In this document: positions 21,758 through 63,587 of the stretch, piece after piece | Layout of the letters: the number at the start of each line of letters is the position of its first letter | How positions within the stretch are numbered: position 1 is the first letter of the stretch | Assembly: GCA_030062745.1 (NCBI GenBank) | Contig: CP099848.1 | Location: forward strand, 10,623,501-10,687,500 | Direction of reading: 5' to 3' | DNA length: 64,000 nt | DNA from: Capitulum mitella | Taxonomy: Eukaryota > Arthropoda > Thecostraca > Pollicipedomorpha > Pollicipedidae | Translations under genes and position numbers: made by a program | Notes under the pieces: generated by a model | Told to the model about the DNA's origin: nothing | Seen by the model: the letters and a program-made list of their open reading frames with translations, nothing else | Database searches by the model: none

Positions 21758-22967
21758 TTAACCCTATTCCCGGAGGGCTAGACGGTATGGGCGATTCCCG
21801 GCAGAGGGGGACGGATTCGGCCCGCCCTGAGATCTCGAGAACTACACATCCGATTTCACTGCAACAAACGGCAATCAACTGGCCATGACGTGGACTACAT
21901 TTTTTAAAAAGAAATTATCAAAATTTTGAAAAGCGTGGATACAGGGGGAAAAATGTCAAAATGGGGGGTACTTTTGGACTTCTTATAACTCCGTTGTTTA
22001 TGGACCGATTTCGATGAAACTGGCATGAATCGAGAGATTATGAATAGGACTTTTACCATTGGTACACACATCTGAAATTTTGAGAAAATTCATGGGCGTT
22101 CACAGGATTTAAAAAATAGGACGATTAATTTTCTAACAAATGAATGAACAAAAAAGGCGAAAACACTTTTTTGGCTTCTGCTAGTCATGTTATGCTAAAG
22201 AAGTACAAATCGCATTACAACGTTTGTATAATGTTAGCGTAGGCGGTGCCAGCAACATGAAAAAGGGGGAACTGTCATGGTCGCACGTTCTTCAGATCAA
22301 CTTGTGACCTTTGACCTTGTATGACCTCCAAGTGACCTTGGGGTCACTTGGAATGATCTCGTGTGCATTTAATATTATCTGTAAACGTTTTCAACCACTT
22401 GAATTCACTTTATTTCAAAAATTTCATTTTACGGCTATTGCGATATACGGTACGCGCACTGACATTTTAGGTCATAGCTCCGTGACCCGACCTGATATTA
22501 AGCTGAAACTTGATACACAAGTAGAGGACACCTTTTTACGGCATATATATCCCGGGTTTGGCATTTGAAAAGACAGCGCAGAATTATTGCGAAAAAACAA
22601 ATTTTGATTTTTGACCTTGACCTGACCTTTTAAAGTGACTTCAGACGAACAAAATTATATCTGCACATTGCCCAACTATTTAGCTATTCGTCCATATAAG
22701 GTTTTAAGTTCTATCTTAAACATGCTGTTTTTGGCAGACATTTTCCTTTTCCCCTCAACATGATCAAAATGGCCTGAGGTGCCTCCCAAAAACGTTGCCT
22801 GGCTCCGCCCCCGAGCAAAAGATAATTTTGAAATTGTGTGACGGCACGTAGAAAGAATAGCTAGGAAAAGTGACCAAGTTTCGTGAAGCTGCGTTAAAAA
22901 GCCTGGAATTGGCAAGCAAAAAACCCGAGGGGGGCGAATTCAGCCCCCCTGCCGGGAATAGGGTTAA
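21758..22967. mobile_element. piggyBac-like non-autonomous element, family B, copy 1
   Basis: It begins TTAACCCTATTCCCGGAGGG and ends TGCCGGGAATAGGGTTAA, with TTAA at each boundary. A G/C hairpin (GGGGGGCGAATTCAGCCCCCC) sits just inside the right end. The 1210-bp interior has no transposase. It contains closely spaced AGGTCA-type half-sites near 22306-22350, including TGACCTTTGACCTT. Four other copies (33517-34729, 42939-44206, 62395-63587, 63743 onward) align along it and confirm both ends. Confidence 0.85.
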
Positions 22968-27685: not shown

Positions 27686-27800
27686 CAAGGCTGGAAACAC
27701 ATTTTTTTGGTGTTGAAGAACACTGAAAAATATGTGCTCTGAAAACATTTTATGCTCCAATAGTTTGATATGACACATTCCTCAAAATGCTGCATGACAA

Positions 27801-28180
27801 TGGTAATCCTTTTAGAAGCGTGCGCCATAAACCAAGCACACTGGATGACACATATACGGCGCGCGTGGCAAAAGGAAACGTCAGCTGTTGCGAGAAACAA
27901 CAACATTATGCACTGGAGCTCCAGGGTCGTGGATCACCTACTATTCGCTAACCTAACCTAACCTAACCTTACCTAACCTAACCTAACCTAACCTAACCTA
28001 ACCTAACCTAACCTAACCTACTGTGTAAAACAAGAGCGAATAGTAGGTGATCTACGACCTGGAGCTCCAGTGCATAATGTTGTTGTTCCTCGCAACAGCT
28101 AACGTCTCCTTTTGCCACGCGCGCCGTATATGTGTCATCCAGTGTGCTTGGTTTATGGCGTGCGCTTCTAAAGGATTGCC
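27801..28180. mobile_element. Palindromic MITE with telomere-like loop
   Basis: The left arm (27801-27948) and right arm (28036-28180) are almost perfect inverted copies of about 145-148 bp; for example CACTGGAGCTCCAGGGTCGT at 27911 pairs with the complement of ACGACCTGGAGCTCCAGTG. The element is flanked by the perfect 8-bp duplication CATGACAA (27793-27800 and 28181-28188). The 87-bp loop is mostly CCTAA repeats. It has no coding capacity. The 8-bp duplication suggests mobilisation by a hAT-type enzyme. Confidence 0.85.
27949..28020. repeat. (CCTAA)n, telomere-like pentamer array
   Basis: About 14 copies of the pentamer, with one ACCTT variant near 27968. TTAGG/CCTAA is the ancestral arthropod telomere repeat. 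Here it fills the loop of a palindromic MITE and is therefore interstitial, not a chromosome end. Confidence 0.95.
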
Positions 28181-28587
28181 CATGACAACCATGATAGAAA
28201 TTCCTAACCATGGAAGCAAATGACTGTATCTCCATTCAGTAAGAAACAGCTATGATGTCATAACTAACTTACACCAAGAATGCCAGCTTAAGCCAGTATT
28301 AAGCCAGCCAGTAAGTTTTTGCAAAATTTTGTGTTCCAAAGCAAAAATTATTCCTTGACACCAAGAACAAAAATGCAATTTCCAACCCTGGCCATGACCC
28401 CCACTGCAGAAAATTCATCATTAGCCTTATGAGTAAATTATCTTTGGCTGCCACTTTTTCCATGTGTTTCTGCCCCCTTCATATAGAGATGTAGTTAGCT
28501 TCAGAATCATGTTTATTGCCATTATTGGGGAGTGGAGAATGGGCCTGCATTTTATCTGCTTTTAAGTCATGCAGTCAGTATGCAGAT

Positions 28588-28854: not shown

Positions 28855-30734
28855 GTACAGATTCATTCAGAATGGCCTGGTTCCATGAATGCAGTGTACA
28901 GTTATCAAAAACTTGACCCATTGCTCCTTTGTATGCCTGTTCAAATTTCAGACATCCTTTGAATTAAAGATATTTGGATGTCCCTTGTATTAGGTTTTGT
29001 TTTCTGAGAATTTGTTTCAAGTCATTAGTTGAAATTGTGATTGGTCACAACACTACATAGCTAAGTCCAAAATTTGCCAGCTATGCCATTTGTTGTTTTA
29101 TTACTGTTATAGGGGCAGAGGGTGAGAGTTGGATGGATGGCTGTCTCCCTGTCCTCTCCCCTCCTACTTCGTGCATCCCTTTGAAGGATTGCTGTGTGTT
29201 GCCGACATGTGTATTTCAAATGACTTATGTTGTGGTGGAGTGAAATATTATGTTTACCTGGCACCACTAAGCATTTGGATATCACCTCATGATCTATTTG
29301 CTACTGACTTTCTCCATCCTATGTCTATTCAAACTGTAATTCATACTGGATACCAGAAGGAATTTCAGCAAATAACAGGTGGCTGATATTGAGCAAGATA
29401 TCTGATCCGGTGACAGAGCTCACAGAGGAATGTTTTGCCACATATTAGAAATCAGAGTAATGCTGTGCAAAATATGTATTCATCTAGGTGTTCTGCTTTA
29501 TTGGTTACACAGTGGCCCATAATTATTGGATTCAGCACAGTCAGCTACAAGCTTTTCCTGAACCCCATGTAATTTAGTCTGGCCTTGTCATATTTGCAGT
29601 TTTGTATGAATAAGATGTGATTCTGATTACCTAAATTTAGGTATTTTGTATTGTCAGATTGTCCTTAAACTGAATAATTTGTCATGACTGAAAAAAACTT
29701 GCTGTTAATTGCATTTTTGTAATCATTTTGTACAAATAGTCTCATTTGGTGCAAATATGAACAGTTAAAATTTTGGTACCATTTAGAAAATTTAGAAAAG
29801 TAAAATGCTATACTCAGATTTGGAATGATACCATTGAAGATGATTATGTGTTGATAATTGCTATTGTTCCTAGGTTGCTGGATTTGTGTTTGCTTGTTTG
29901 TTGTGAGTTAGGACACTCAGGTCTTGGACTCAAGCATCTGTGTCTTTAGTCAAATCTTGCATCTCTGTCTCATCAAGTGTCAGTCAGTTGCTGCTAGGTT
30001 AGGGTATAAAGGCTCTCCAGAACTCAGTCAGTAGTCCATACTCAGTCAGTAGTCCTACCAGAAAATGTATGAGATGACCCAGTCCAAAATCAGAATTGCT
30101 ATTTCTTCTATCTTGAATGTTTGTGGTTTGTTTCTGACCAAAGGCAGTGAGCTTCAAATTTGGTATCACTTGATCAGTAACTGCATGCATTTTTAGTTGA
30201 ATCTAGATGCTAAATATCAGACTTTAAAACAATGAACTTGTTGGCATGAATTGGGTCAAGGCCAAGGCCAAGGAGGATATTGACATGATCTCAAGTAGAC
30301 TACCTTTTTTGTCTCCTGTGTGGTCTGTGTTTTGTGCCATCTTAAGTTCAGATTCAGGAAAACACTACCTTGGGGCGAATTCAGAAGTGATGTGACATTT
30401 GCTTTGCCATGCTGGAGGGACCCGAACGAAATATCGCACTTCATGCTTCAAGGTATGAATAACTTGAGTGCCAAGATTGGCTTATGCTTTATCATTGATA
30501 TACAAACTAGTACCATTGCTTTACAACGCCTGGTGTGTACAATGATGGAGATACAGTGAAGAATATTGGAGGTAAATCATTTCCCCTAAGTTTTGCTATT
30601 TCGCACGTGCTCTGTCTGCAGGTGACGTCAAAATCTCGGAAATCGGTTGGACGCCTTTTAGTGCATTACACAAATCTGCGTGTTTGAGTTAAGATTTAAG
30701 CAAGAAAGCCTGAATCGCGATTCGAGGACAAACT
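28855..30734. other. No gene recognised; AT-rich, low-repeat stretch
   Basis: This is the least repetitive stretch of the window: AT-rich, few CpG and no detectable repeat partners within the window. It may be ordinary intron or intergenic sequence of a host gene. Only short open frames occur, and none carries recognisable motifs. Confidence 0.45.
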
Positions 30735-31133
30735 GTCGAATGGCCGAATATCGCATGCCAAAATATCGAAAGCCAAATATCGACGACTAATCATCGAAAC
30801 GTGTAAATATCGACTTAAGTAAATATCGAGATGCTAAATTATCGCATAACAGAGTATCAACCGGATAAATATGGACTTGCCCAAATATCGAAACGGTAGG
30901 CTATCGCATGACACAATATTAACATTATAAATATCGACAAGTTTAATTATCGAGTGCCATATTGTCGATTGACGTAATATCGATGTGATAAATATCGACA
31001 AGCTTAAATGTCGAAATGCCAAGTTGTCGAATGACAGAACATCGACAGGATAGATATCGACATAGCTAAATATGGAATGGCGATGTATCGGAACGTGAAA
31101 TTATCGTACGTCAAAATATCGAATCAGCCAATG
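30735..31133. repeat. FB1 left array, 62-bp four-unit higher-order repeat
   Basis: From about 30793 the units follow a 16+16+15+15 pattern that repeats at least five times. Slot 1 is like TCGACTTAAGTAAATA, slot 2 like TCGAAATGCCAAGTTG, slot 3 like TCGAATGACAGAACA and slot 4 like TCGACAGGATAGATA. The first few units (30735-30793) are irregular, at 14-16 bp. Confidence 0.85.
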
Positions 31134-33251
31134 ATTGAATGACGTAACGCAGCGAAGTGTGCCGCAGATGCAGTGAGGGGCGTGCAACAAGACATGCAGC
31201 GGACAGCGTGCCATGTGTGCGACATTGTATACACCTTGCTGTGGTGTTGCATGGGACGTGACCGATGGGAAAAATGGCCTTACGAACACATCTAGTACGT
31301 TCCCTGAGCTCTACGACGTCATGTCGTATCGCGGCATAATCGTGAAATATATCTATAGATTCCACTGACGAAGTTTTGAAGACTTACGGGACTAGTAGTG
31401 GCCATTCCTTAGGGCTGCATGGGCTCCTTCCCAGTGGTTACAAATAAATTGGTAGAGAAAAGTTCAGATTCTTATTCGAATTTTTTATTTCCCACAATTT
31501 TAAAATTAGGTTAATTTATTCCTTTTACCTCTTTATTTCATATATTCTTTTATTTAAATTAATTTGGTTAAAAAAGCAAAAAATCAGATTAAATTTAGAA
31601 GCGTCTGTCCCTCCCAGACTTCTGCGGAACGACCTGCAGAGGATGATGTTGTTCAGACCTACGTTTTATATAGTGGCAAGGGCTTGGAAAGTGGATAGGC
31701 AGGACGGGCAGTGGCTCAAATGTTGAGGATAGATCGACATCAGCCTTACGCTACATGGAAAGCAGTGAGGTGAAACGGCGTTCTTTCCTCACCTAACTTC
31801 TGAGAAGTTGCCGCGTCCTTCTTTAGGGGATCGTTCATTGTTCAGACATGTGCACTGTCACAGGACAAGATGCTCTTCATCAGGCTAAGGGATTTGGACG
31901 TGGAGGTAAGGTGATTATTTCTCCACCGGGCGTCAGCACTGTCCGTGGTTGATTGTGCATGATACGGTTGAGAGCTAGCGTCTGAGTCGGTGCCTTTCCG
32001 CCACCGCCTGCATTCGTTACTGAGCACTCAATTGAAACCAACCACCTGGTTGCCGTACCCAACGCAAAAATGTAATAGATTGGTACCAGGGCTTCATTCT
32101 AGCGAGGGTGGCGGAGGATTGCGTTCTCGTAGCCACCTAGAATGGAGCTGTATACTGATCGAAGAGGAATGGTAAAGACGACGGTTCGTAGAGAAATCCT
32201 ATTGGCACGTTTCGCATCGTCGCAAAATGGACACATTCAGAACACATTCAACACGTTCCGCATGTTCAAAACATAATGGAGCTAACTTCTATCATTTCCG
32301 GCCATCGCCGTCGACAAGAAACGGCCAGTAATGGCATAATAGCTTGCAATGGTTGAAAAGCGCTTTCTGTACCTGGTGGTTGTAATGACGCAGGAACGAT
32401 CGGACTGGGCTAGGTCGCCATGCCCACTGCAGCGGAAAGCTACACTTATGTTTTGTTCCTTACGATATGAAAAACGTTAACGTCTGCACGAAGTAGTGTG
32501 ATGCGCGGCATGCCATAAGCACGACACAGCAGAGGCACGTAGCCGGAATTTCACCAAGGGAGGGACCAAAGTTTGCCAGACGGATCCCGCAACCGAAGGA
32601 GCCCCACGCGTTCGCTGTGGGGTCCCCAAATTCTCTTTTCCTATCCGATTTAGTCCACTCTGTTTTACAGTTACCCCATTGCAGACTAGCATGGGCCTCT
32701 GGACCGGCCCAGTGGCGTTAGACGGTTCTGGAAACCTAATAATAAGGAGTTTTCACAAAGTGCGAATTTTGGCGCACTTCGGGCGTACCCCCGCCCTTAA
32801 ATCCTCGAGAGGAAGACTACCCCGCCTCCGTCGTCCCGTCCCCTCCCCTTGGCCACGCTCTTGACACCGCACCTACCGCAGATAAGCTCTTTAGCCTGCT
32901 GGCCAGCGACACATCCAGATGGGAGGAGCGCAGCAGCAGCCACATCTCTCTTTCCGAGGTACGGTGTAGGCGTCATGAAACCTAAGACCCAGGTATTTTT
33001 TGCCAGTGCAAGACGCCCGAAGAGCTTCCACACCTGAGCACTTGCACAGCGTAGATGCCTTAGAGGCAAATTTCTTCTAACCACTCTCTAACCTTGACGC
33101 CTCCCGGGGTTCAGTTTTGCTAATCCGGACAGGCATGCTGTGGACCCCAGTTTGAGGGTGAACCCAGCCGTGGTAAGATTTCCCTGGCAAAGCACGATGT
33201 AGCCAGCATTATCTTGCGATATTTACCTGTGCAAAGAGATGCAAAAAGGCA
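31134..33251. other. FB1 core, no recognised gene
   Basis: The core starts with an unassigned GC-balanced segment and an AT-rich stretch at about 31440-31600. A short inverted pair lies at about 32090-32145 (CATTCTAGCGAGGGTGGCGG versus CGTAGCCACCTAGAATG), and a GC-rich segment at 32690-33110. Short minus-strand frames near 32477-32692 and 32797-33084 have no recognisable motif. Confidence 0.5.
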
Positions 33252-33450
33252 CATTGGTCGATTCGATATTTTATCCTTCGATATTTAGGCATGCCGATAT
33301 TTATCCTGCTGACGTCCTTCCATTCGGTAATTTGGCATTTCCATATTCCGGCATTATTATATAGTCGATATTTACGTGTTTTGATAGTTTGCGATGTTAA
33401 GCTTTCGATATTTTCTCATTCGATATTTGGTGAAGCGATATTTTGTTTTG
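33252..33450. repeat. FB1 right array (inverted)
   Basis: Read on the minus strand, the units include TGGAAATGCCAAATTA (slot 2), CCGAATGGAAGGACG (slot 3), TCAGCAGGATAAATA (slot 4) and TCGGCATGCCTAAATA (slot 1), in the same order as the left array. It is shorter and more decayed than the left array. Confidence 0.8.
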
Positions 33451-33516
33451 TAACCGTGAATCACGGTTGTAGATAACAAAAGATATGACATGTATGTGTG
33501 CAAGTGACGTAGCCCG

Positions 33517-34729
33517 TTAACCCTATTCCTGGAGGGCTAGATGTCATGGTCGATTCCCGGCAGGGGGTGGATTCGGCCCCCCCCTGAGATCTCGAGAACT
33601 ACTCGTCCGATTTCATCGCAACAAACGCAGTCGACTTGCCGTGACGTGAACTACATTTTTACAAAAATAAATTTTCAAAATTTTGAAAAGTGCGGATACA
33701 GGGTGGGCAAAAATGTCAAAATGAGGGGTACTTTTGGACTTCTTATAATTCCGTTGTTTATCGACCGATTTCAATGAAACTGGCATGAATCGAGAGATTA
33801 TGGATAGGTCTTTTACCATGAGTGCACAAATTTGATATTTTGAGAAAATTCATGGGCGTTCACAGGGTTTCAAAAATAGGAGGATTATTTTTCTCACAAC
33901 TGAATGAACAAAAGAGGCAAAAACACTTTTTTGGCTTCTGCTAATCATGTTATGCTAAAGAGGTACAAATCTCAGTACAATGTTTGTATAATGTTAGCAT
34001 AGGCGGTGCCAGGGACATGGAAAAGGGGAAACTGTCATGGTCATACGTTCTTCAGATCAACTTGTGACCTTTGACCTTAAATGACCTCCAGTGACCTTGG
34101 GGTCACTTGGAATGATGTCGTGCGCATTTAACATTATCTGTAAACAATTTTAATCATTTGAATTCAATCTGTTTCGAAAATTTCATTTTATGGCTATTGC
34201 GATATAGGGTACGCCCAATGACATTTTAGGTCATAGCTCCGTGACCCGACCTGATATCAAGCTGAAACTTGATACACAAGTACAGGGCACGTTTTTACGT
34301 CAGATGTATGTTCCGGGTTTAGCATTTGAAAAAAAACGGCGCCGAAATTATTGAAAAAAAATTGACTTTTGACCTTGACCTCACCTTGTAAAGTGACCTC
34401 GGATAAACAATGTTACATTTGCGCATTGCCCAACTATTTAGGTATACATCCATATAAAGTTTTAAGTTCTATCTTAAAAACTTTGTTTTATGCAGGCATT
34501 TTCCTTTTACCCTCAACATGGGCAAAAACGGCCTGAGGTGCCTCCCAAAAACGTTGCCTGGCTCCGCCCCTGTGTAAAATAGAATTTTGAAATTTTGTCA
34601 CGGCGCGTAGAAAGAGTAGCTAGGAAAAGTGACCAAGATTCATGAAGCTGCGTTAAGAAGCCTGGAATTGGCAAGCAAAAAACCCGAGGGGGGGGTGGAT
34701 TCAGCCCTCCCTGCCGGGAATAGGGTTAA
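33517..34729. mobile_element. piggyBac-like element, family B, copy 2
   Basis: It begins TTAACCCTATTCCTGGAGGG and ends TGCCGGGAATAGGGTTAA, with TTAA at both edges and the same orientation as the copy at 21758. It is full length (1213 bp), and interior identity to copy 1 is obvious throughout, including the AGGTCA-type half-site cluster near 34065-34105. Non-coding. It sits 66 bp from the right array of FB1. Confidence 0.9.
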
Positions 34730-36890: not shown

Positions 36891-37710
36891 TTCTGTTTCC
36901 GAATGCTTTCAGCTTTCCAGCTAGGCAGTCGTGATTGTGATTCATGACAAAAGTGTGATTCCACAGTCAGTTCAGAAGGGAACCTGATACACTCACTCAT
37001 CTAGTGCCCAGTCCCATACCATGACGACTTCGTCATGAAGTCTGCTTCATGATTTGTGCTGACAGATTGGCTTCCAGGTTGCACTGTGATTAGGGATGCA
37101 CCGGATCGGGATTTTTGTAATCCAGCCGGATACCGGATATGCCGGATCGGGGTGCCGGATATCCGGCCGGATATCGGCCGGATACCGGATATTATGTTTA
37201 CATGTTTTTATTTACTATTTCTATTGAAATAATGAAACCAAAAAGAATGGATAGAAAATGAAAATATGGGAAACTGAAAAAAATAGTAAAAATATGCCCA
37301 CAGCTTGTGAGTCGATATCTTCAAGGCCAAATGGAGTGGAAAAGGTCAATTTTGGACACTATCGGCCTGTACAGGCCATTCCGTACAACTTTTCAATCGA
37401 AATGGGGTGTTTGTTGGACCGTTAAAACGTGGAATACGATAGCTTCCATTCATTTGGCGTCTTGACTGGGGATTTTGGGTCGAGGTCGTGTCATGTCAGT
37501 GACCTGTGACGTCATTTTTTCATCTTTTACAGATCAGATTTCGAACAACACGGGACAGTTTGAGAGTAAATGAGGGTGTGACATGTATCTTCTGGCGTAT
37601 TTTCAGTGAAGGCAGCCAACATCGGTACATCTGGTCATTTCCAGCGTTTATATTTCTGTATGTATGTATAGCTATGTATGCATATACATGTCAGTATCAA
37701 TATGCCAAGA

Positions 37711-38130
37711 CGTGTTTTAGAAGGGTCTTTGAATGCGTATTTCACACAAATCGATGTATTGCAGAACAAATCTGGACCAAGTCACAAAAACCTGCCCTTG
37801 ACCTTTGATGACCTTGACCTGAAATGACTCTGGCATATATATATGCGTCTGCATGTGCGCACACGTGTCTTTATTAGGGTCTTTGAATGCATAATTCATA
37901 CAAATCGATATGTCGCAGAACAGATCTGAGCAAGGTTACAAGATATTTGACCTTGGACGACCTTGACCTTCGCTGACCTTGGAATATTTTAGCGTATCAG
38001 TGTGCGCACACGTGTTTTTATTAGGGCCTTCGAATGCATATTTCATACAAACTGACATCTTGCAAAGCAAATCTGGATCAGGTCACAAACCTTGACCTTT
38101 GATGCCCGTAACCTTTATTGACCCTGGCTG
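37711..38130. repeat. Tandem repeat of about 150 bp, three units
   Basis: Units start near 37711, 37864 and 38011. Each begins CGTGTTTTTATTAGGGTCTT or similar, passes 'tttgaatgcatatttcatacaaat' and a 'gcaaatctggatcaggtcacaa' block, and ends in clustered GACCTTGACCT motifs. The same unit family occurs in inverted orientation at about 52860-53310. Confidence 0.85.
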
Positions 38131-38687
38131 TGGCCTTTGCACGTCCATCACTTATGCCCGAATGACATCGCCTGACTGTGTTCAAACAGCAGTCTTCAGT
38201 AGAACGCCAGTTCTTTCACAATGTTCCCATTTGTCAGCAACAACCGTCGTTTTCGTGATGTTTGCCTGACTTCAAATGCTTGAAACTTCAAAATTTCCAG
38301 CCGATTTCCAATTTTTCTACGCCATTCGACGAGTTGTTCAATTGCCATAAATGTCACAAAGTAACAGCAACCAGCTCAGATGCGTTCTCGAGATATTCAA
38401 GAAGAGCAGGTGGGCGGCACAAAAAGACCCCCATTCCAGTGCGCGTGTTAAAAGACAGCTACAGCTGATTCGAGCTGTAAAAACAACGGGTGTCATAACG
38501 CGTTCCGGCTGGAAGGTTTGGAATCTCCAGAACGTACGTGACAAAAAATATTGGTGTCAAACAAGGTTTGGTACCGAAAGAGCAAGAGGTCACCCCAGGT
38601 CACCCAAAAACAAGAGGTCGCCCAAAAGACCCGCATCCGGAAACTGTCCCGCGGATCACATGAAATCGGAAAGAACGGGGCATTGTC

Positions 38688-39266
38688 ATGGACGACGAAA
38701 GCTACTTCACCTACCACGAAAGGTATATGTCAGGAAACCTTGGGTACTCTGTTAAGCACGTCCAGCAGAAGTCCAGCAAAAGTACAACTGAGGCCAGAGA
38801 GCAAGTTTCCCCGCAATCTTTTCGTGTGGCTCGCCATCTCTCTCAGGGGTGTGACAAAGCCGGCTATCATGCCGGGTATGGGTAATGTTGATGGTAACAT
38901 GTACCGTGAGAAGTGCGTAGGAGATGTGCTCATCCCATATTTGGATGAGTACTGTTTCGAGAGGGACATGCTGGTCTGGCCAGACTTGGCCAGCGCTCAT
39001 TATGCGAGGAAAACGCTCAAGTGGCTGGAAGAGGCCAGAGTGCCGTATGTAGTGCGTGACAGCAGTCCCCCTGTGTGCACCAGGTGTGTCCTACTGAGGA
39101 CATCTGGGGCATCATTAAGCAGAGGATGTATCAGGGAGACTGGTACGTAACATCCAAAGTCGCCCTAAAGCGCTGGATGAGCCAGGTGATCGCTGCTCTG
39201 GACCTAGGGATACCGCGTAAAATGCTGGTGCGCGTACCCAGGCGCGTGCGTGTTGCCGACAGATGA
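38688..39266 (+). pseudogene. Tc1/mariner-superfamily transposase fossil
   Basis: The piece starting at 38688 reads MDDESYFTYHERYMSGN, which matches the first catalytic Asp region. A frame change then leads to FPRNLFVWLAISLRGVTKPA and DMLVWPDLASAHYARKTLKW (second Asp in WPDLASAHYA). A second frame change near 39080 leads to CPTEDIWGIIKQRMYQGDWY, the third acidic region, and a C-terminal LGIPRKMLVRVPRRVRVADR. These motifs are typical of the branch of Tc1/mariner transposases with WPDxAxxHYA. The N-terminal paired-type helix-turn-helix was not recognised; it should lie before 38680. At least two frameshifts make it inactive. Confidence 0.75.
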
Positions 39267-39826
39267 GAGGTGATGATCCATTAAGCAAGAACTGACCGCA
39301 ACGGTTATGACTACATTTCTGCAAAGTTTAATGTTCATACAGTAATAAATGTGCTTACGGTATGACTATAAATACTGTCGCATTTTCCAGTGCCCACAAT
39401 TTATATTTTTTCTTAATGCATTTGTGTCAGAATTTGAGAAAGATAACAAACATTTCGAAAAAAGGAAATCATAAGATGGACTGCTGACCGCATGCTGGCC
39501 ATTGTTTCACAGTTTTGAACTTGAGTCCCATTCTTGCAAGATATGTCCGAACCCTCCCGGACCAATACAGAAAAGAATTGGTTCCAAGGTCTCCAGACCG
39601 ACTTGGAACTGCCAGTAACATCGACAATCTAACACAACAAGCCACGTTTCCCCTGAAACGGTTTTGGACGCAGACATTAGAGCAACGTCTTGATTGTACA
39701 CCGGGAGGTTAAATATCCGGCAGTATCCGGCCGGATCACAAAAATATCCGGCCGGATACCGGATACCGGGTAATCTCTAATATCCGGCCGGATATCCGGC
39801 CGGACCGGAAATCCGATGCATCCCTA

Positions 39827-42800
39827 ACTGTGATGGCCTTATCATTGTAAAAGGTTGAAAAAAAAACTTGCTGGACCAGTTCAGGCAGAGTATTTTTGGC
39901 TGACTTCCTCGGTCTACGTCCGTCCAGCTTATCTTCTCTTGCCGGCCACTTCTGGCTGTTTATCTGTGACCGACCGTCGTGACGGACTTTTTTAGGACTT
40001 CAACATCAGACAGTAGTCTTCGACGTCGAGAGAAAAATCTAACAGTGGAATTACTCTGTCAGGAATAACATGAATGATAGCTTTTTTTGAGCGTTTGGCT
40101 CAAATCGTATGCATTGTGGACGGGAAGAAACATAGTTTTGTCTCCTATGCACGGCGCAAACCATCGTATTCTGTGGGGGAATATAAAAAATCATTTTCAT
40201 ATGGCTTAACTGTGTCCCTTACGCGGACATCGTGCCCCTTTTGACTTGCTGCTTCATTATGTTGTAAGCGAGAACCGTGAAACTTGATTTTTTTTTGTAT
40301 TGGAGAAGCGTGAGTTTTGCAACAGTAGCGAAGGAGATTTTACGAGGTGTTTGTCGAAGGACATTTTTGGTGATTTGCATAGCTTCTCTCGCCCATGCGC
40401 AGCTGTTGAATGTTATGAGAAAAATGCCAAGTTCTACGTTGTAACTGTTGATGGTATGCTTTTTTCATCATGCTCGCATTTTAGTGGCAGGGAGATTCAT
40501 TGCATTTAAAGATGTCCAAAGCACGCTTTTAGAAAATGGCTAGAAAGCTTTACAACGGACAGGAGACGCAAGGAGTTGCGATTTAGGGCTGCATGCGGAT
40601 CGTCATGACATAGAACTTATGGTGCAGAGTTGCAGATTGAAGAAAAGGAAAATGGGCACTCGATTGACGTTGCAAAAAACTTGCAAGTATTCTATAGCAT
40701 TGACGTCAGCTGACACTCCCACATACAAGTGGTTATTCAGTGTCATTAGCAAGCCGCCACTGGCAAGGGAGTGTGAACTGTGCATTGCTCCGCGTTCAGA
40801 CGATGTCTCTCTACATGTTAGCATGTTAGTTCCTTGGCGTCAGAGGCTGATCCTAGGTAACTCCATCGGAATGTTTGGTACAATTTGCGCCATCATTTCT
40901 TGAAAGTGATTAGACCTGCTGTTACGTTTTCTGGGAAACATTTTTTTGCGTCTGTTAAATAAAACTGGATAAGCAAGTCAAACATTGGTTTCAGAAACAG
41001 GATGTCCTTAACTCAACATGATTGCGGCTGTCGCCTGAATAATCAGAAGGAAAACTTTGGGTGAAGTACAAATTTGTATGTGTTCCGTCCATTCCATCAG
41101 TTTCTTTGTTCGGACACGAAGATTTTCGCTGATGTACTGTGCGACCTTTTGAGCTTTCCACAAAATTACATATGGACTAATGTACAACTTCGTTAAAGGC
41201 GGGTCTTCCATGCCTCGTTGCTGGAATCGTGCATAAGAGCATCAATATACATCCTTATCAAAAATCATGCGAAGCCTAAAACAGGGCTGAAATCACCATA
41301 TATACCCTAACAACCGCCAAATGACTGTAATTCTTCTTTCCAACTTCCACACTTGCAAACCAGGCAAATTACATTTATATTGACGTGCTCCGTATTTCGC
41401 AGATTCCCCATTCACTTCCATGCTAACCCGCGACGGATTTATCCCCGGTGACGTCACGTTTTATCACACCGTTGCTAGGATACGAAACTGATTGCTCCTG
41501 AGTGAATCCTCTAGACGGGGCCTCATGAGCGTAAAATGTGTTTAGTGCTGCAATAAAGCGCATACCGTGCGGAAAAGCTGGTTTTGAACCCTCCAGGCTC
41601 TCCAGCCTCTGAAGCAATCTTCGCTAAGCGGGGGGCTCATGAGAATTCCCAAGTCGAATCCGAAGTCAGGATTTTGGTTCATGTATCATTTAGTTTAACC
41701 AGTGTGGCATTTCTTATACTTCATTCCTCAGCCTACGTGGTCTTGAAATAATTGCGCATTTCTGTCATGGTTATGTTTACATCCATCGCAAGCAAGACCA
41801 ATTTCTTATGACAGCTGCCCGGCTAATGTATAGTACGTGGCCAGGACGTAGTGATTGTGTTGTGAAAATGGTATGTATTGCTTGCTTGAATGACGGGTTA
41901 TCGGCATTGGATACCCATTATCACATTGCCTTTCAACCAAGACTGCTGTAATTAGTATGATTTGAAATATCATATATTTTATGCCAGTTTAGTAGCATTC
42001 CTTTACCGTTATGCTCTCCGAAGGCAAATTAAATAGCATATTAATTAGACGCTTGGTGTGGTCATTTTTATGCATGTTTTACGGTTTCAGATACTGACTG
42101 CAAGTAAGACCGTGAGCCTGGGATACTTTCGCATTGCACTGTTCAGATAATGAATATACACATGTTCTTTGTAATTACTTCAGTCTTTAGTTTGGTTTCC
42201 GATTGGTTTCCACCCACGATTGGTTTCCACGATTGGTTTCCACCTTCTTCCTTGAGTAAGGTAATTGAGGCCACATTTTTGATATGCTAAAAATTTGAGT
42301 ATGTATGAATAGTTAAGTTGTTCATTAGTCCCAAAAAAAAAACATAAAAAGGTGGTTATTTATGTCGACTTTGCCTTTGGAATATCGCCTGCCATTTTGT
42401 GCCATCTTTTGCCACCCCTGTTGTAGCAGTCTGTTTATAACCGGTTAAAAGTGGTGGCAGAAAATATTTCATGCTGGCTGCTATTCCGCAGCAACTGTTT
42501 TAATAAGATCGACAACACTCTTGGACGCCCACAGATGAACGAGTATAGTTTTGTTACATGCGATCATCAGGCCTTGCTCAAACGTTCTGCCCCTCATGCA
42601 CCTTCTCTTTGGCGCAAGAAGCATACCGGCTATCCTAGAGCCGCTCCTGAGCAGCCGATAGGGGCAAGCAGGTATTGAACCGGAGGAGCATCCTGCGGAT
42701 TATCGGAAAATTCTTTGGCTTGGAAACGTCAGCGCTCTTACTGTGAAGGTGTACACATGCTGCTTTCATTCTTTGATTTCGGCCTCAGCCGAACTCATGC

Positions 42801-49011: not shown

Positions 49012-51910
49012 GTCATGCAGGTAGAAATGGATCGTGCTTCTTCTTGTCATGCAAGTAGAAATGTATCGTGCACCTTCCCACAATCAGGGGCTCCAAGCCC
49101 AACAAGCTGCACGCTCACGTCCCTAAATCCTGCTTGCCCTGGATAGCGTTTGTGACTTTGCAGCCGACCATAAGATTTGGCACCTCCAGGATCAACGTTT
49201 GCCAAACCAAAAACCTCAATGGCAGAGAGGTGCACCTCAGGACGTGCGTCCCGCATACACCAGGCTGAAGCTATTGGCATGCAAAGCAGCCACATATATC
49301 GACTGCCACACCTCACGTGTCCCTGCACGCCAGTTTTCGGCATGACAGAGGTGGCGGTTTTGCGTCATGCAAGTAGAAATGAATCGTGCACCTTCCTACA
49401 AAATGAAGATCCCAAGTCCCACAGGTTGCGTGGATGGCATCTTGCCACTGATGCCCGAAGTCTTGCTTGTTCTTGATGGCGTTTGTGACTTTGCAGCCCA
49501 CCACAAAATTTAGCGCGCCCAGCGTCAACGTTTCCCAAACAAAAAGCCTGAATGGCAAACGGGTACACGTCAGCATGCGCGTTCCGCACACACGAGGCTG
49601 AAGCTGTGGGCATGCAAAACAGCCACGCATATCGAATATCATGTTTCACTTGCTCCTGTTCGCCATCCCACCGGTGGAAGCTTTGCGGAAGTGAAGGAGG
49701 GGTGTTAATTACTTACGCGCTTCACAACTTCACGCAAGCTGCATCCCCGTTTCGGCCTGAATCCATCGAAATTGGTTGCCCAGCTGCCCATCCCCCTTTC
49801 CAAGTCATCATCGCATCAAACGACGCCCATTGAGTACCAGCAGTGGCCCATAAGAAAAAAATGTAAAGGAGGCGCACGCGCGCTCCAAGTGACGCTTTGA
49901 ACCCTGCCCAGGATATCTGGTAACGTTGGATAGGTATGGTGTTGGTCTGTCTACCCATAAAATTTCAACCGCCTAGATCACTGTTGACAGCACTCGGTGG
50001 TCCCTGAGTGGAAAATGAAACACGTGCTTGTAGGTCGTCACGTGGATTGCACGTGGGTGCCGACCACAAAAGTGAGAATCCGTAAGTAGGACCCATGTTG
50101 TCACCAAGTCTTCAGTGCATAGGACCCGCAGTTTAACCCGTGCCCGCGATTAACTGAATTCTGCAGAGGTCCGGCTCGCGACACAAGTGTCACTGGTTCG
50201 TGGCAAGTGTCACTTGCTACGAATCGTTTCGAAACCTACACCATAATCTGTTCGCCGAGTCGTCGCACACAGTGTGTCGCGATCGGCTGGCGCATTCGGG
50301 CGCTGGACGCTCCGAAACGTGAACACACACAAATACCTCGATCTATTCTTTTCCGAACGACCGCCATGTATGAAATCTCAAAGCACATGCAAAGCACGCT
50401 TTTACTGCTCTCGATTTGGAACCGTCGGGTGTGCCGTCTCGGCGGACATTGTGACGTGTGGCACGTGCCGTCGAGGCAGGGGAGCATGGATGGGGACGGG
50501 GACCATTGACACAGAATTGGAAAGGAGTCCGCGACACGGGACCAGGGGTGCGAACAGGAACCGTGTCAGGGGACCAAGACCGGACTAAAACAGCGGATTA
50601 GGGACAGGATAGAGAATAGATTAGGGCTCGGCAACAGGGCATCAGGATAGGGACCAGGGACGGATCAAGGGACAGTGGAGACAGAATTGGACCAGGATAG
50701 ACTATCAAGACCATTACTCAGAGTGTGCCGGAACAGGGAATCACGACGGGGCCGAAACAGACTTCGACAGGGCCCCGAAGCAGATTAGAGAATAAAATGT
50801 CTCCGCAGTTAGAGGAGCCTCAGGAAACCACGCACGCCCTCTGCCAAAGAATTCCACAGAGGACCCTAGAAAGAACAAATAACAAAGTCCAGGTGTTTTG
50901 CACAACATGCTACCCAACGGTATGGCAGCCCTGTGACGTCATCAGGGTAAAAAGGATTCCTTCCCAGGCCGCCGTTTACAGACCGATTTTCAAAATTCCT
51001 TTTTTGAATAAATCCGCAAGGGCGTGGTCTTCAAATGCCGCGGGCACGCGGTAGTACCGCGCTAATTTAGTTAATTACGTGGTCAGGGCAAACGGCGGGT
51101 ACTGTTTATTGAGGGCTTGGTGACAGCATGGACCCCACAAACGGATGCGTGCTGTTACGATCGACTCCTAGGCGTTTGTTACGATATGGATTCGGGGACC
51201 TACGAGTACCGTCAGCAGTGACCTAGGCGGCTGAAATTTGGTGGGTACGTAGACCATTCGTTACCACATGGGTATGGTGTAGCGGGTCACGTGCAGTGTG
51301 CGTGCGCCTCGTTTGCATATCTGCGTTTCTTATGGGTCATTGCCGGAATATAAACGGCGCAGTTTGGTGCAGTGGTGGCTTGGAAAGGCGGAAGAGCAGC
51401 TGGATGAACAATTTTGGTGGATTCAGGCCGAAACGGGGTGCAGCTTGCACGTGAAGCGTGCGGCGCGTAATTGATTAACACCCCTCCGTCATTACCAGAA
51501 AACCTCTACCGCTGGAGTGCTGAAAATTGCCTGGCAGGAGCACGTGAAACGTGGCATTCGATAAATGTGGCTTTGCATGTCAGTATAGCTTCGTCTTCAT
51601 TGTGCGAGACGAACGTGCTGTGGTGTACCTCTTTGCCGTTCAGGTCTTTGGTTTGGGAACCGTTGATGCTGGAGCTTCCAAATTTTGTGGTGGGCTGCCA
51701 AGTCACAAATGCATCCAGAAAAGCAAGATTTAGGACATCAGTGGCGAGATGCTACCCACGTGAGCATGCACCTTGTTGGATTTGGGATCCTCTGTTTATG
51801 ATGAGGAAGCTATTTAGTAAGCGTAAACAGTCTTCATGTATTTCGTGTACAAAGGCTATAACCAGCAGGGTAGTAGGTCCAGTCTGCATCTTGCAGACTG
51901 TGCACCTGTG
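49012..51910. repeat. Large inverted repeat with internal duplication
   Basis: The left arm (about 49012-50010) contains two tandem copies of a unit of about 325 bp (49040-49363 and 49364-49700) starting at 'catgcaagtagaaatg'. It also contains a further segment that includes 'ccccgtttcggcctgaatcca' (about 49747) and 'tttcaaccgcctagatcactg' (about 49964). The right arm (about 51180-51800) contains single inverted copies of these pieces: 'tggattcaggccgaaacgggg' at 51419, 'cagtgacctaggcggctgaaatt' at 51217, and the 325-bp unit at about 51500-51800. A core of about 1.1 kb separates the arms. Its size and palindromic layout suggest an old transposon or an inverted duplication. No target duplication was found. 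Confidence 0.75.
50495..50790. repeat. Degenerate GGGACCAGGGACAG-type minisatellite
   Basis: About 300 bp with recurring 'gggacc', 'cgggaccagggg', 'gggacaggatag' and 'gacaggg' motifs, in the core of the 49-52 kb inverted repeat. No exact period is evident. Confidence 0.5.
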
Positions 51911-52559: not shown

Positions 52560-53316
52560 GTCTTTTTGTGCTTCCTCATCTGCTTTTCTTGAATATCTCG
52601 AGAACGGATCGGAGCTGGTTGCTGTTATTTTGTGATATTTATGGCAATTGATTAACTCGTTGAATGACGAAGAAAAATCGGAAATCGGCCGGAACTTTTT
52701 TAAGTTTCATGCATTTGAAGTCAGGCAAACATAACCAAAACGACGGCTGTCGCTGATAAATGGGAACTTTGTGAAAGAATTAGCGCCCTACCTAAGATTA
52801 CCTTTTGAACACAATCACGCGACGTCATTTGGGCACAAGTGATGGACGTACCGGGACCAAAGTCAGGGTCAGTAAGGGTCAAGGTCATCAAATGCCAAGG
52901 CCAAACAGCTTATGACCTGATCCAGATTTGCTTTGCAACATGTCGGTTGGTATGAAATATGCATTGAAAGACCCTAATAACAACACGTGTGCGCACACTG
53001 ATACGCTAACATATACCAGAGTCAGTAAAGGCCAAGGTCATTTAAGGTCAAGGTCAAATATCTTGTGGCCTGGTCCAGATTTGCTTTGCGACATGTCGAT
53101 TTGTATGAAATATGCCTTCAAGAGACCTTAATAAAAAGACGTTTGCGCACATGGATGCGCTTACGTATATACTAGGGTCATTTCAGGTCAAGGTCATTAA
53201 AGGCCAAGGGCTACTATTTTGTGCCTAACTAGCAAATCTGGTCCAGATGTACTTTGCAATGTGCCGTTTGTATGAAATCTGCATTCAAAGACTTTTAAAA
53301 CACGTCTGGCACATTG

Positions 53317-62394: not shown

Positions 62395-63587
62395 TTAACC
62401 CTATTCCCGGCAGGGGGGCTGAATCAGCCCCCTCGGGATTTTTGTTTGCCAGTCCAGGGTTTTTGACGCAGTTTCACGAAACGTAGTCACTTTTGCTAGC
62501 TATTCTTTCTTCATATTGTAACAAAATTTCGTAATTCTGTTTTGCTCAGCGGCGGAGCCAGGCAACGTTTTTGGGGGCACCTCAGGCCATTTTTGGCCTG
62601 GTTGAGGGTAAAAGGAAAATGGCTGCCAAAAATAGCGTTTTTTGAGATGGAGCATAAAGCTTTACATGGATGTTTAGGTAAATAGGTGGGCAACAATCTG
62701 AGTTCACTCCTTAAAGTCAATTTAAGGTCAGAAGTCAAAATTTGATTTTATAGTAATAATTTTTGCGCTGTTTCTTTCAAATGCCAAACCAAGAAAACAT
62801 ATCACGTAGGTGGGTGCCCTCTACTTGTGTACCAAATTTCAGCTTGATGTCAGGTCGGGTCACGGAGCTATGACCAAAAATGCCAGTGCGCGCACCCGAA
62901 ATCACAACAGCCGTAAAATGGAATTTTAGAAATAGAGTGAATGCATATGATTGGGAACGTTTTCAAATAGACTAAAATGCGCACAAGATCATTCCAAGTG
63001 ACTCTAAGGTCATTGGAGGTAATTTAAAGCCAAAGGTCGTAAGTTGGCCTGAAGAACTTGTGGCCGTAACATTATCCATTTTTCATGTCCCTGGCACTGC
63101 CTAGGCTAGCATTATGCAAACATTGTAATACGATTTGTACTTCTTAAGTATAACATGACTATTAGAAGGTGAAGAAGTGTTTTTAACTTTCTTTTTAATT
63201 CCGTTTTTGAAAAAAAAACTAATCCTCGTATGTGCAAAGCCCTGTTAACGTCTATGAATTTTATCAAAATTTCATATTTAAGGGCAGATGGTAAAAGTCC
63301 CATCTAATAATCTCTTGATTCATGCCAATTTCATCAAAATCAGTCCAAAGACAACATAGTTATTACAAGCCGGGAAATATCCCCCATTTTGACTTTTGCC
63401 CCCTGTATCCACCCCTTTCGGAATTTTGAAAACTTCTTTTCATAAAAATGTACTTTACGTCATGGCAAATCGATTGCTCTTTGTTTCGATGAAATCGAAT
63501 GTGTAGTTCTCGAGACCCCGGGGGGCCGAGTCCCCCCCTTCCATCAGGAATCGACCATACCGTCTAGCTCTCCGGGAATAACGTTAA
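62395..63587. mobile_element. piggyBac-like element, family B, copy 4 (reverse orientation)
   Basis: It begins TTAACCCTATTCCCGGCAGG and ends CTCTCCGGGAATAACGTTAA. Compared with copies 1-3 it is inverted and more diverged, especially across the middle. It is 1193 bp, with TTAA at both edges and no coding capacity. Confidence 0.85.

Follow-up and report, generated by a model that had tools for sequence, protein, structure and literature searches.

The window, a 64,000-nucleotide stretch of the Capitulum mitella genome (C10:10623501-10687500), contains a foldback-like element (element 1), which belongs to this structural class by its unequal inverted tandem-repeat termini around a variable core. 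Its terminal array is organised in four slots that together form a 62-bp unit, and the order of these slots recurs in other copies of the family. We regard element 1 as probably a non-autonomous foldback DNA transposon of the Mutator type, old and internally deleted, whose arrays would be transposase-binding ends with multiple sites. The asymmetric termini, the probable 9-bp target duplication, the sister family and the ancestral slot order described below go beyond the initial annotation of this DNA.

The left array consists of units of about 15.5 bp. Its strongest period is 62 bp, with a self-match of 51%, compared with a maximum of 39% in 2,000 first-order Markov nulls (periods 5-99). Tandem Repeats Finder, proposed as a check in the initial annotation, returned the same 62-bp period with 5.4 copies. 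The ATATCGA cores are spaced by 16, 16, 15 and 15 bp starting at position 30807; cycles 1, 2 and 4 of the five labelled follow this pattern exactly, cycle 3 reads 16,15,15,15 and cycle 5 reads 16,15,16,15. The outermost spacings are irregular (15,15,14,14, followed by 16). With unit starts picked by hand from motif matches, and three weak out-of-step ones omitted (30959, 31062 and 31077), units of the same slot were more alike than other units (identity 0.63 versus 0.53; 0/5000 label shuffles), and the likeness persisted when only spacer bases were used (2/5000 shuffles). Unit identity was highest at lags of four and eight units. The period and the slot test together uphold the earlier claim of four slots of 16, 16, 15 and 15 bp that cycle at least five times, three of the five labelled cycles being exact. 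The array units carry CGATA on the reverse strand.

The two arms are co-linear in inverted orientation. A lenient alignment scored 70 against a null maximum of 20 (300 nulls), and a strict one 91 against 32 for the null and 17 for the same-strand control; the alignment takes in both the spacers and the repeated motif. The right array is the shorter of the two and is damaged, holding a 10-nt and a 9-nt remnant, and its outermost spacings are irregular (15,15,14,10), the series 15,15,14 being common to both arms. The circular order that best fits this array (W1_R) is A-B-C-D (ABCD), which, with the co-linear alignment, bears out the proposal that the right array is inverted and keeps the slot order of the left. 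The inner ends of the arms, also said to match, are 75% identical over 48 nt (score 24; maximum of 200 nulls, 14). Since these innermost 48 nt match, most of the difference in arm length must correspond to cycles lost or gained in between.

An element was indeed found where the initial annotation had placed one (30735..33450), and its end motifs set the left limit 16 bases and the right limit 5 bases farther out (Table 1). At its right end AAA stands where most other copies have GGA. The core of about 2.1 kb was described as having no recognisable enzyme, and this held: its longest open frame, the only window frame of element 1 scanned, has 120 aa and no Pfam match. There was no Rfam match at gathering scores, nor any match in viral contigs scanned for one exact tandem pattern.

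Table 1. Features of element 1 and of the second foldback element, in window coordinates.
Feature	Position	Strand	Basis
Element 1 (2737 bp)	30719-33455		boundaries from end motifs
Probable left target-site duplication CTGAATCGC	30710..30718	.	7/9 match to 33456-33464, boundary by end motif
Left terminal domain GATTCGA-GGA-CAAA, L-type end	30719..30732	+	end alignment with other copies
Left array: outer irregular units, five A16 B16 C15 D15 cycles (62 bp), one last unit	30733..31134	+	
Non-coding core	31135..33250	.	homologous cores in other copies
Right array, inverted, slot order as left, fewer cycles	33251..33441	-	
Right terminal domain, R-type end, GGTTACAAAACAAA when read inwards	33442..33455	-	end alignment
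Probable right target-site duplication GTGAATCAC	33456..33464	.	match to 30710..30718
Second foldback element (W2), other family	54091 to about 55763	-	inverted arrays of 15/16-bp GTACGTATGCGCAAAT-type units

Copies were sought in the genome (477 Mb, 16 contigs). The right array as query gave 21 matches, and the 11 places outside the window that it matched were all read as 8-kb loci. More than 500 bp of homologous core was present in seven of them (L009, L010, L012, L013, L014, L015 and L017), with shorter stretches in L011 (~155 bp), L019 (~130 bp) and L016 (~90 bp) and none in the 8-kb locus L018. Over the longer stretches, core identity among copies is about 67-73%. The core alone as query gave 30 matches, the window included. 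Two arrays with a core between them are found in the window, in L024, L022 and L023, and in L020 and L021, a pair counted as one insertion because their flanks agree at 96% and 99%. No match was found among the flanks of the window copy, L024, L022, L020 and L062, as separate insertions would give. Near window positions 32411-32535, about 1.5 kb present in L020, L021 and L022 is missing from the window copy; this extra part is homologous, at least partly, among L020, L022, L023, L055 and L056. Because it is common to other copies, the window copy is internally deleted.

These copies with a homologous core support the initial reading of a single foldback-like element whose inverted termini are internally repetitive. 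Neither of the two patterns named as contrary to that reading was observed, be it arrays that occur independently or cores that are unrelated in all copies; solo arrays nonetheless occur. One (L018) is a fragment, and in six others (L016, L019 and L057-L060) a left end of element 1 lies within a larger repeat family, with homologous sequence on both sides. These six were not counted as insertions, and the fragments L011 and L018 and the short stretches (L001-L008 and L025-L054) were also set aside. Two loci about 53 kb apart, L010 (C5 ~1983095-1984391) and L055 (~2037794-2039026), carry right and left core-family parts in the same orientation; either a large insertion has divided one element or both are truncated copies, and the halves were not counted as complete. 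L056 shows one array within the stretch read.

The four-slot order is not peculiar to the window. Tandem Repeats Finder consensuses from L009, L010, both arms of L014 and the left arm of L015, that is, closely similar 62-bp units in five arrays at four other loci, rotate clearly onto the window's unit; the rotation is weak for L015_R (41 versus 39 for another phase) and L012_R (33 versus 29). Among the six circular orders, ABCD was the best in 10/10 family arrays tested, with 78-85% identity, a test that is partly circular for the arrays that supplied the unit. The ten include W1_R and L017_R, which gave no consensus and supplied none of the unit. It was not best in L062, L063 or W2; L013_R, L020_L and five other arrays stood outside the test. 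The strongest period was 62 bp in 7/12 family arrays (W1_L, L009_R, L010_R, L014_R, L014_L, L015_R and L015_L) and in 1/5 arrays inside the larger repeat. Over 15 arrays with 225 spacings, 24 were of 14 bp, 76 of 15 bp and 75 of 16 bp. As the slot order is common to the copies, the four-slot unit must be older than the dispersal of the family, and its ragged appearance reflects decay. A local, recent origin of the four slots is ruled out, the order being found in other copies too.

The outer ends of the copies fall into two types in an alignment of 15 ends from 12 loci. R-type ends, approximately GGTTACC-GGA-CAAAATATCG, are present in L014, L015, L010, L011, L018, L009 and L017, and in the window with AAA for GGA; the alignment does not show the R-type motif at the right ends of L012 and L013. 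L-type ends, approximately GATTCTA-GGA-CAAAATATCG, are present in the window, L022, L016 and L019, and by eye in L014. Asymmetric short ends with GGA before the array are present here, save at these right ends of the window copy, L012 and L013. The array directly adjoins the end motif in the aligned ends, outside which the flanks look unrelated except in L012/L013 and L016/L019. With up to three mismatches, the R-type motif GGTTACCGGACAAAATATCG has 158 matches in the genome versus 30 for a reversed-pattern control, and the L-type motif GATTCTAGGACAAAATATCG has 90 versus 16, at least 11 sites being in both lists. Exact matches to GRTTACCGGACAAAA number 49 versus 4 in the control. At C2:38031621-38039384, two ends in inverted orientation enclose 7.8 kb. 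A variant ending in AATTTCC (GATTACCGGACAAAATTTCC) has 100 matches versus 2 with up to two mismatches, 26 of them exact, and probably marks a younger family with other units.

The sequences flanking these ends point to a probable 9-bp target duplication, now decayed, as support rather than proof. The 9-mers next to eight end pairs were compared with boundaries fixed by the end motif. They matched at 7/9 positions in the window copy, 7/9 in L062 and 6/9 in L022, and at 4, 3, 3, 3 and 1 positions in the other five pairs, which show no duplication at the exact boundary; one end is poorly placed in each of the low-scoring pairs W2, L020 and L021. Of 1568 displaced controls, none reached 7 and seven reached at least 6; of 56 cross-element controls, none reached 7 and one reached 6. 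In L024, 7/9 is obtained by eye if one boundary is shifted by one base. Shifting both boundaries of the window copy by 1 gives 8/9, a candidate already seen before the boundary was fixed and not significant in a free search (37/200 shuffles), nor was any other duplication significant in that copy with the boundaries left free. No pair has a perfect duplication, and the copies are old. For an 8-bp duplication of the hAT type in element 1, the best 8-mer pair was at chance level (110/200 shuffles), a result in which decay could hide a true one; the control, a hAT-like element of the window, gave 8/8 (0/200 shuffles). That element (37083-39834) has the termini TAGGGATGCA, is flanked by a perfect 8-bp duplication (ACTGTGAT) and carries subterminal clusters of the motif CCGGATATCCGG.

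No transposase was found in the family. Thirty open pieces from ten loci (L009, L010, L012, L015, L021-L024, L055 and L056), representing nine copies because L015 and L022 are one, gave no transposase Pfam match, some of these pieces possibly falling outside elements. In one of them, an unrelated match to LIME1 fell below threshold (16 bits versus a cut-off of 27). A coding core was therefore rejected, there being no transposase in the core or in the open pieces of other copies. The genome holds six MULE matches and one FLYWCH match, none of them within 10 kb of the end motifs among the matches listed (for the R-type, 100 of 158). A link to the MULE at C9:16146426 was considered and dropped: its surroundings have three weak end-motif matches versus 1.44 expected (38/200 shuffles had as many), and the 5.5 kb read there contain no 15-16-bp arrays.

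The window contains a second foldback element (W2), with a core of about 1.07 kb and array periods of 16 and 31. Its left end, GGTAAACGGACAAATGTACG, is R-type with six mismatches to the motif; its right end matches the L-type with an indel by eye only, the script giving nine mismatches. Its flanks show no duplication (3/9). The W2 family has 75 genome matches (269 first-look candidates, 40 scored), with array, core and array in order at two other loci (C5:11667027 and C6:30492151) and a single array with core at several more. Homology between the units of element 1 and W2 was rejected, their alignment being at noise level (12 versus a null mean of 12.3); the two elements share the spacing and, more weakly, the end motif. 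R- and L-type termini also start families with other units, apparently W2 among them. Paired ends further led to L062 (938 bp) and L063 (969 bp), which have inverted ATATCGA-motif arrays without the four-slot order and centres that match each other and show no match to the core of element 1. Each has a central 23-bp tandem array (367-518 in L062, 562-758 in L063), inverted between the two; the unit of this array includes CGGTTTACCG, which is similar to the terminal motif GGTTACCGG.

Several other repeats were noted in the window. At 27800-28183, a 126-nt inverted repeat (92%) surrounds 14.6 copies of CTAAC; the other strand reads TTAGG, the arthropod telomere repeat, and the stretch is an interstitial telomere-like block in a small palindromic structure. 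A long inverted-repeat element with arms of about 480 bp and a core of about 1.4 kb occupies 49429-51760. A repeat with a sharp start (33517-34200) has three more window copies, at 21758, 42939 and 62905-63587 (77-88%). On the minus strand, an open frame of 602 codons at 11468-13276 matches HTH_psq and DDE_1 and, weakly and below threshold, PHD; these predicted domains suggest a transposase of the pogo/Tigger type. At 37710-38089 and 52864-53223, 15 kb apart, lie tandem arrays of about 150 bp whose units, judged by eye, seem related in opposite orientation.

If element 1 is indeed of the Mutator type, a transposase made elsewhere would cut at the short end motif, and the array would recruit several transposase molecules. 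With sites 15.5 bp apart, or about 1.5 helical turns, successive sites would lie on opposite faces of the DNA and be realigned every 31 bp. The four slots may go back to a duplication, earlier than the spread of the family, in which four diverged units were copied together as a single 62-bp unit; the number of cycles would then have changed in whole 62-bp steps, by unequal exchange or slippage, separately in each arm. The window copy would be a dead derivative formerly mobilised in trans. A clean motif or duplication is missing at several ends, which slightly lowers our confidence in the Mutator-type assignment.

Other minisatellites are present in the window, and two unrelated ones could face each other by chance. 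The co-linear arms, the shared outer spacings 15,15,14, the inner-end match and homologous copies that keep both core and slot order contradict this, and we give it practically no credence. A different doubt concerns the role of the array and is compatible with a Mutator assignment: the arrays might be mainly host-bound sites or recombination substrates, the transposase needing the short ends only and the array hitch-hiking. CGATA, present in the units, is a motif known for insect insulator proteins, and similar ends occur in families with different units. Against such a passive role, the array adjoins the end motif in the aligned ends, and diverged copies retain the slot order in both arms, which common descent alone could explain; we hold the passive role rather unlikely.

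Alternatively, the element might owe its movement to a different transposase superfamily, either P/THAP, as in Galileo, or hAT with its clusters of subterminal motifs, and have come to a similar anatomy by convergence. The foldback form is known from unrelated transposases (PMC3169594, PMC4079207), the hAT-like element of the window shows both a perfect 8-bp duplication and subterminal motif clusters, and no MULE lies near the ends among the matches listed. The ends of element 1 are, however, unlike those of that hAT-like element, a 9-bp duplication suits Mutator better, and the layout resembles the nematode element Tm1 in several points. On balance an origin from another superfamily seems unlikely, and the Mutator type remains our preferred assignment.

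Tandem units of about 15 bp are known in the outer terminal domain of the sea urchin TU elements, which make an 8-bp duplication. Closer to element 1 is Tm1 of Meloidogyne, a Mutator/Foldback element of the Phantom type that has 9-bp duplications, asymmetric 7-bp ends (CGGTTAA and CCTACCC), GGA, repeats of 13-15 bp, mostly 14 bp, and, in one class, a MULE transposase of the Phantom type (PMC3169594). Both have a 9-bp duplication (a probable one here), 7-bp asymmetric ends that lie beyond the inverted part (one of them CGGTTAA in Tm1, versus CGGTTAC in the window), GGA next to the end motif (in most copies here), short-unit arrays of unequal number between the ends, most copies without transposase, and a unit containing TATCG. 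On the other hand, the Tm1 units are mostly of 14 bp versus 15-16 bp here, the CCTACCC end does not match GATTCTA, a MULE transposase is known in Tm1 and was not found here, and the accessible part of the description gives no four-slot order (PMC3169594). Because its units are not mostly of 14 bp, element 1 was not filed as a member of Tm1.

Likeness to other foldback systems is more partial, as far as the accessible portions of their descriptions go. Drosophila FB also has a 9-bp duplication and inverted blocks of diverged short repeats, unequal in number between the ends, but each block has five repeats of 27-31 bp versus four of 15-16 bp here, and end sequences of 467-479 bp lie outside the blocks (PMC7642927). 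Tetris and Galileo likewise have long, internally repetitive termini and non-coding copies (PMC4079207, PMC3688188); the Tetris repeats, however, are of about 220 bp (PMC4079207), and Galileo, which has several THAP-domain sites in the tandem repeats of its foldback-like TIR, uses a P-type transposase (PMC3688188). Rehavkus shares the 9-bp duplication, long termini and a minisatellite part, but its minisatellite is described only before the 3' terminus and its transposase has a PHD finger (PMC6446971); neither was seen here, for the transposase in the open pieces scanned. A four-slot terminal array of this kind was not seen in the open literature searched, most subscription papers being outside its scope. 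As far as seen, then, the foldback kind is known, and the four-slot unit, with the set of array families that have similar ends, is a variant of it.

The great length and internal repetition of foldback termini have long lacked an explanation. The present genome appears to contain several families of arrays that have a similar terminal motif and a 15-16-bp spacing but differ in unit sequence, which makes it testable whether a transposase reads spacing or sequence; the four-slot order has survived heavy decay in the ten arrays tested. The likeness to Tm1 points to the Mutator superfamily from the anatomy of the ends alone. More tentatively, and with less confidence than in the assignment itself, these ends may preserve an ancient Mutator-foldback end code, (C)GGTTA plus two bases, GGA and an array with 15-16-bp sites, shared with nematode Tm1 (~14 bp), in which, within this genome, the unit sequence was replaced between families while the spacing and the short end were kept. 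If so, transposon ends would be recognised more through the spacing and multiplicity of their sites than through the sequence of the units, and the 62-bp unit would be one stable solution.
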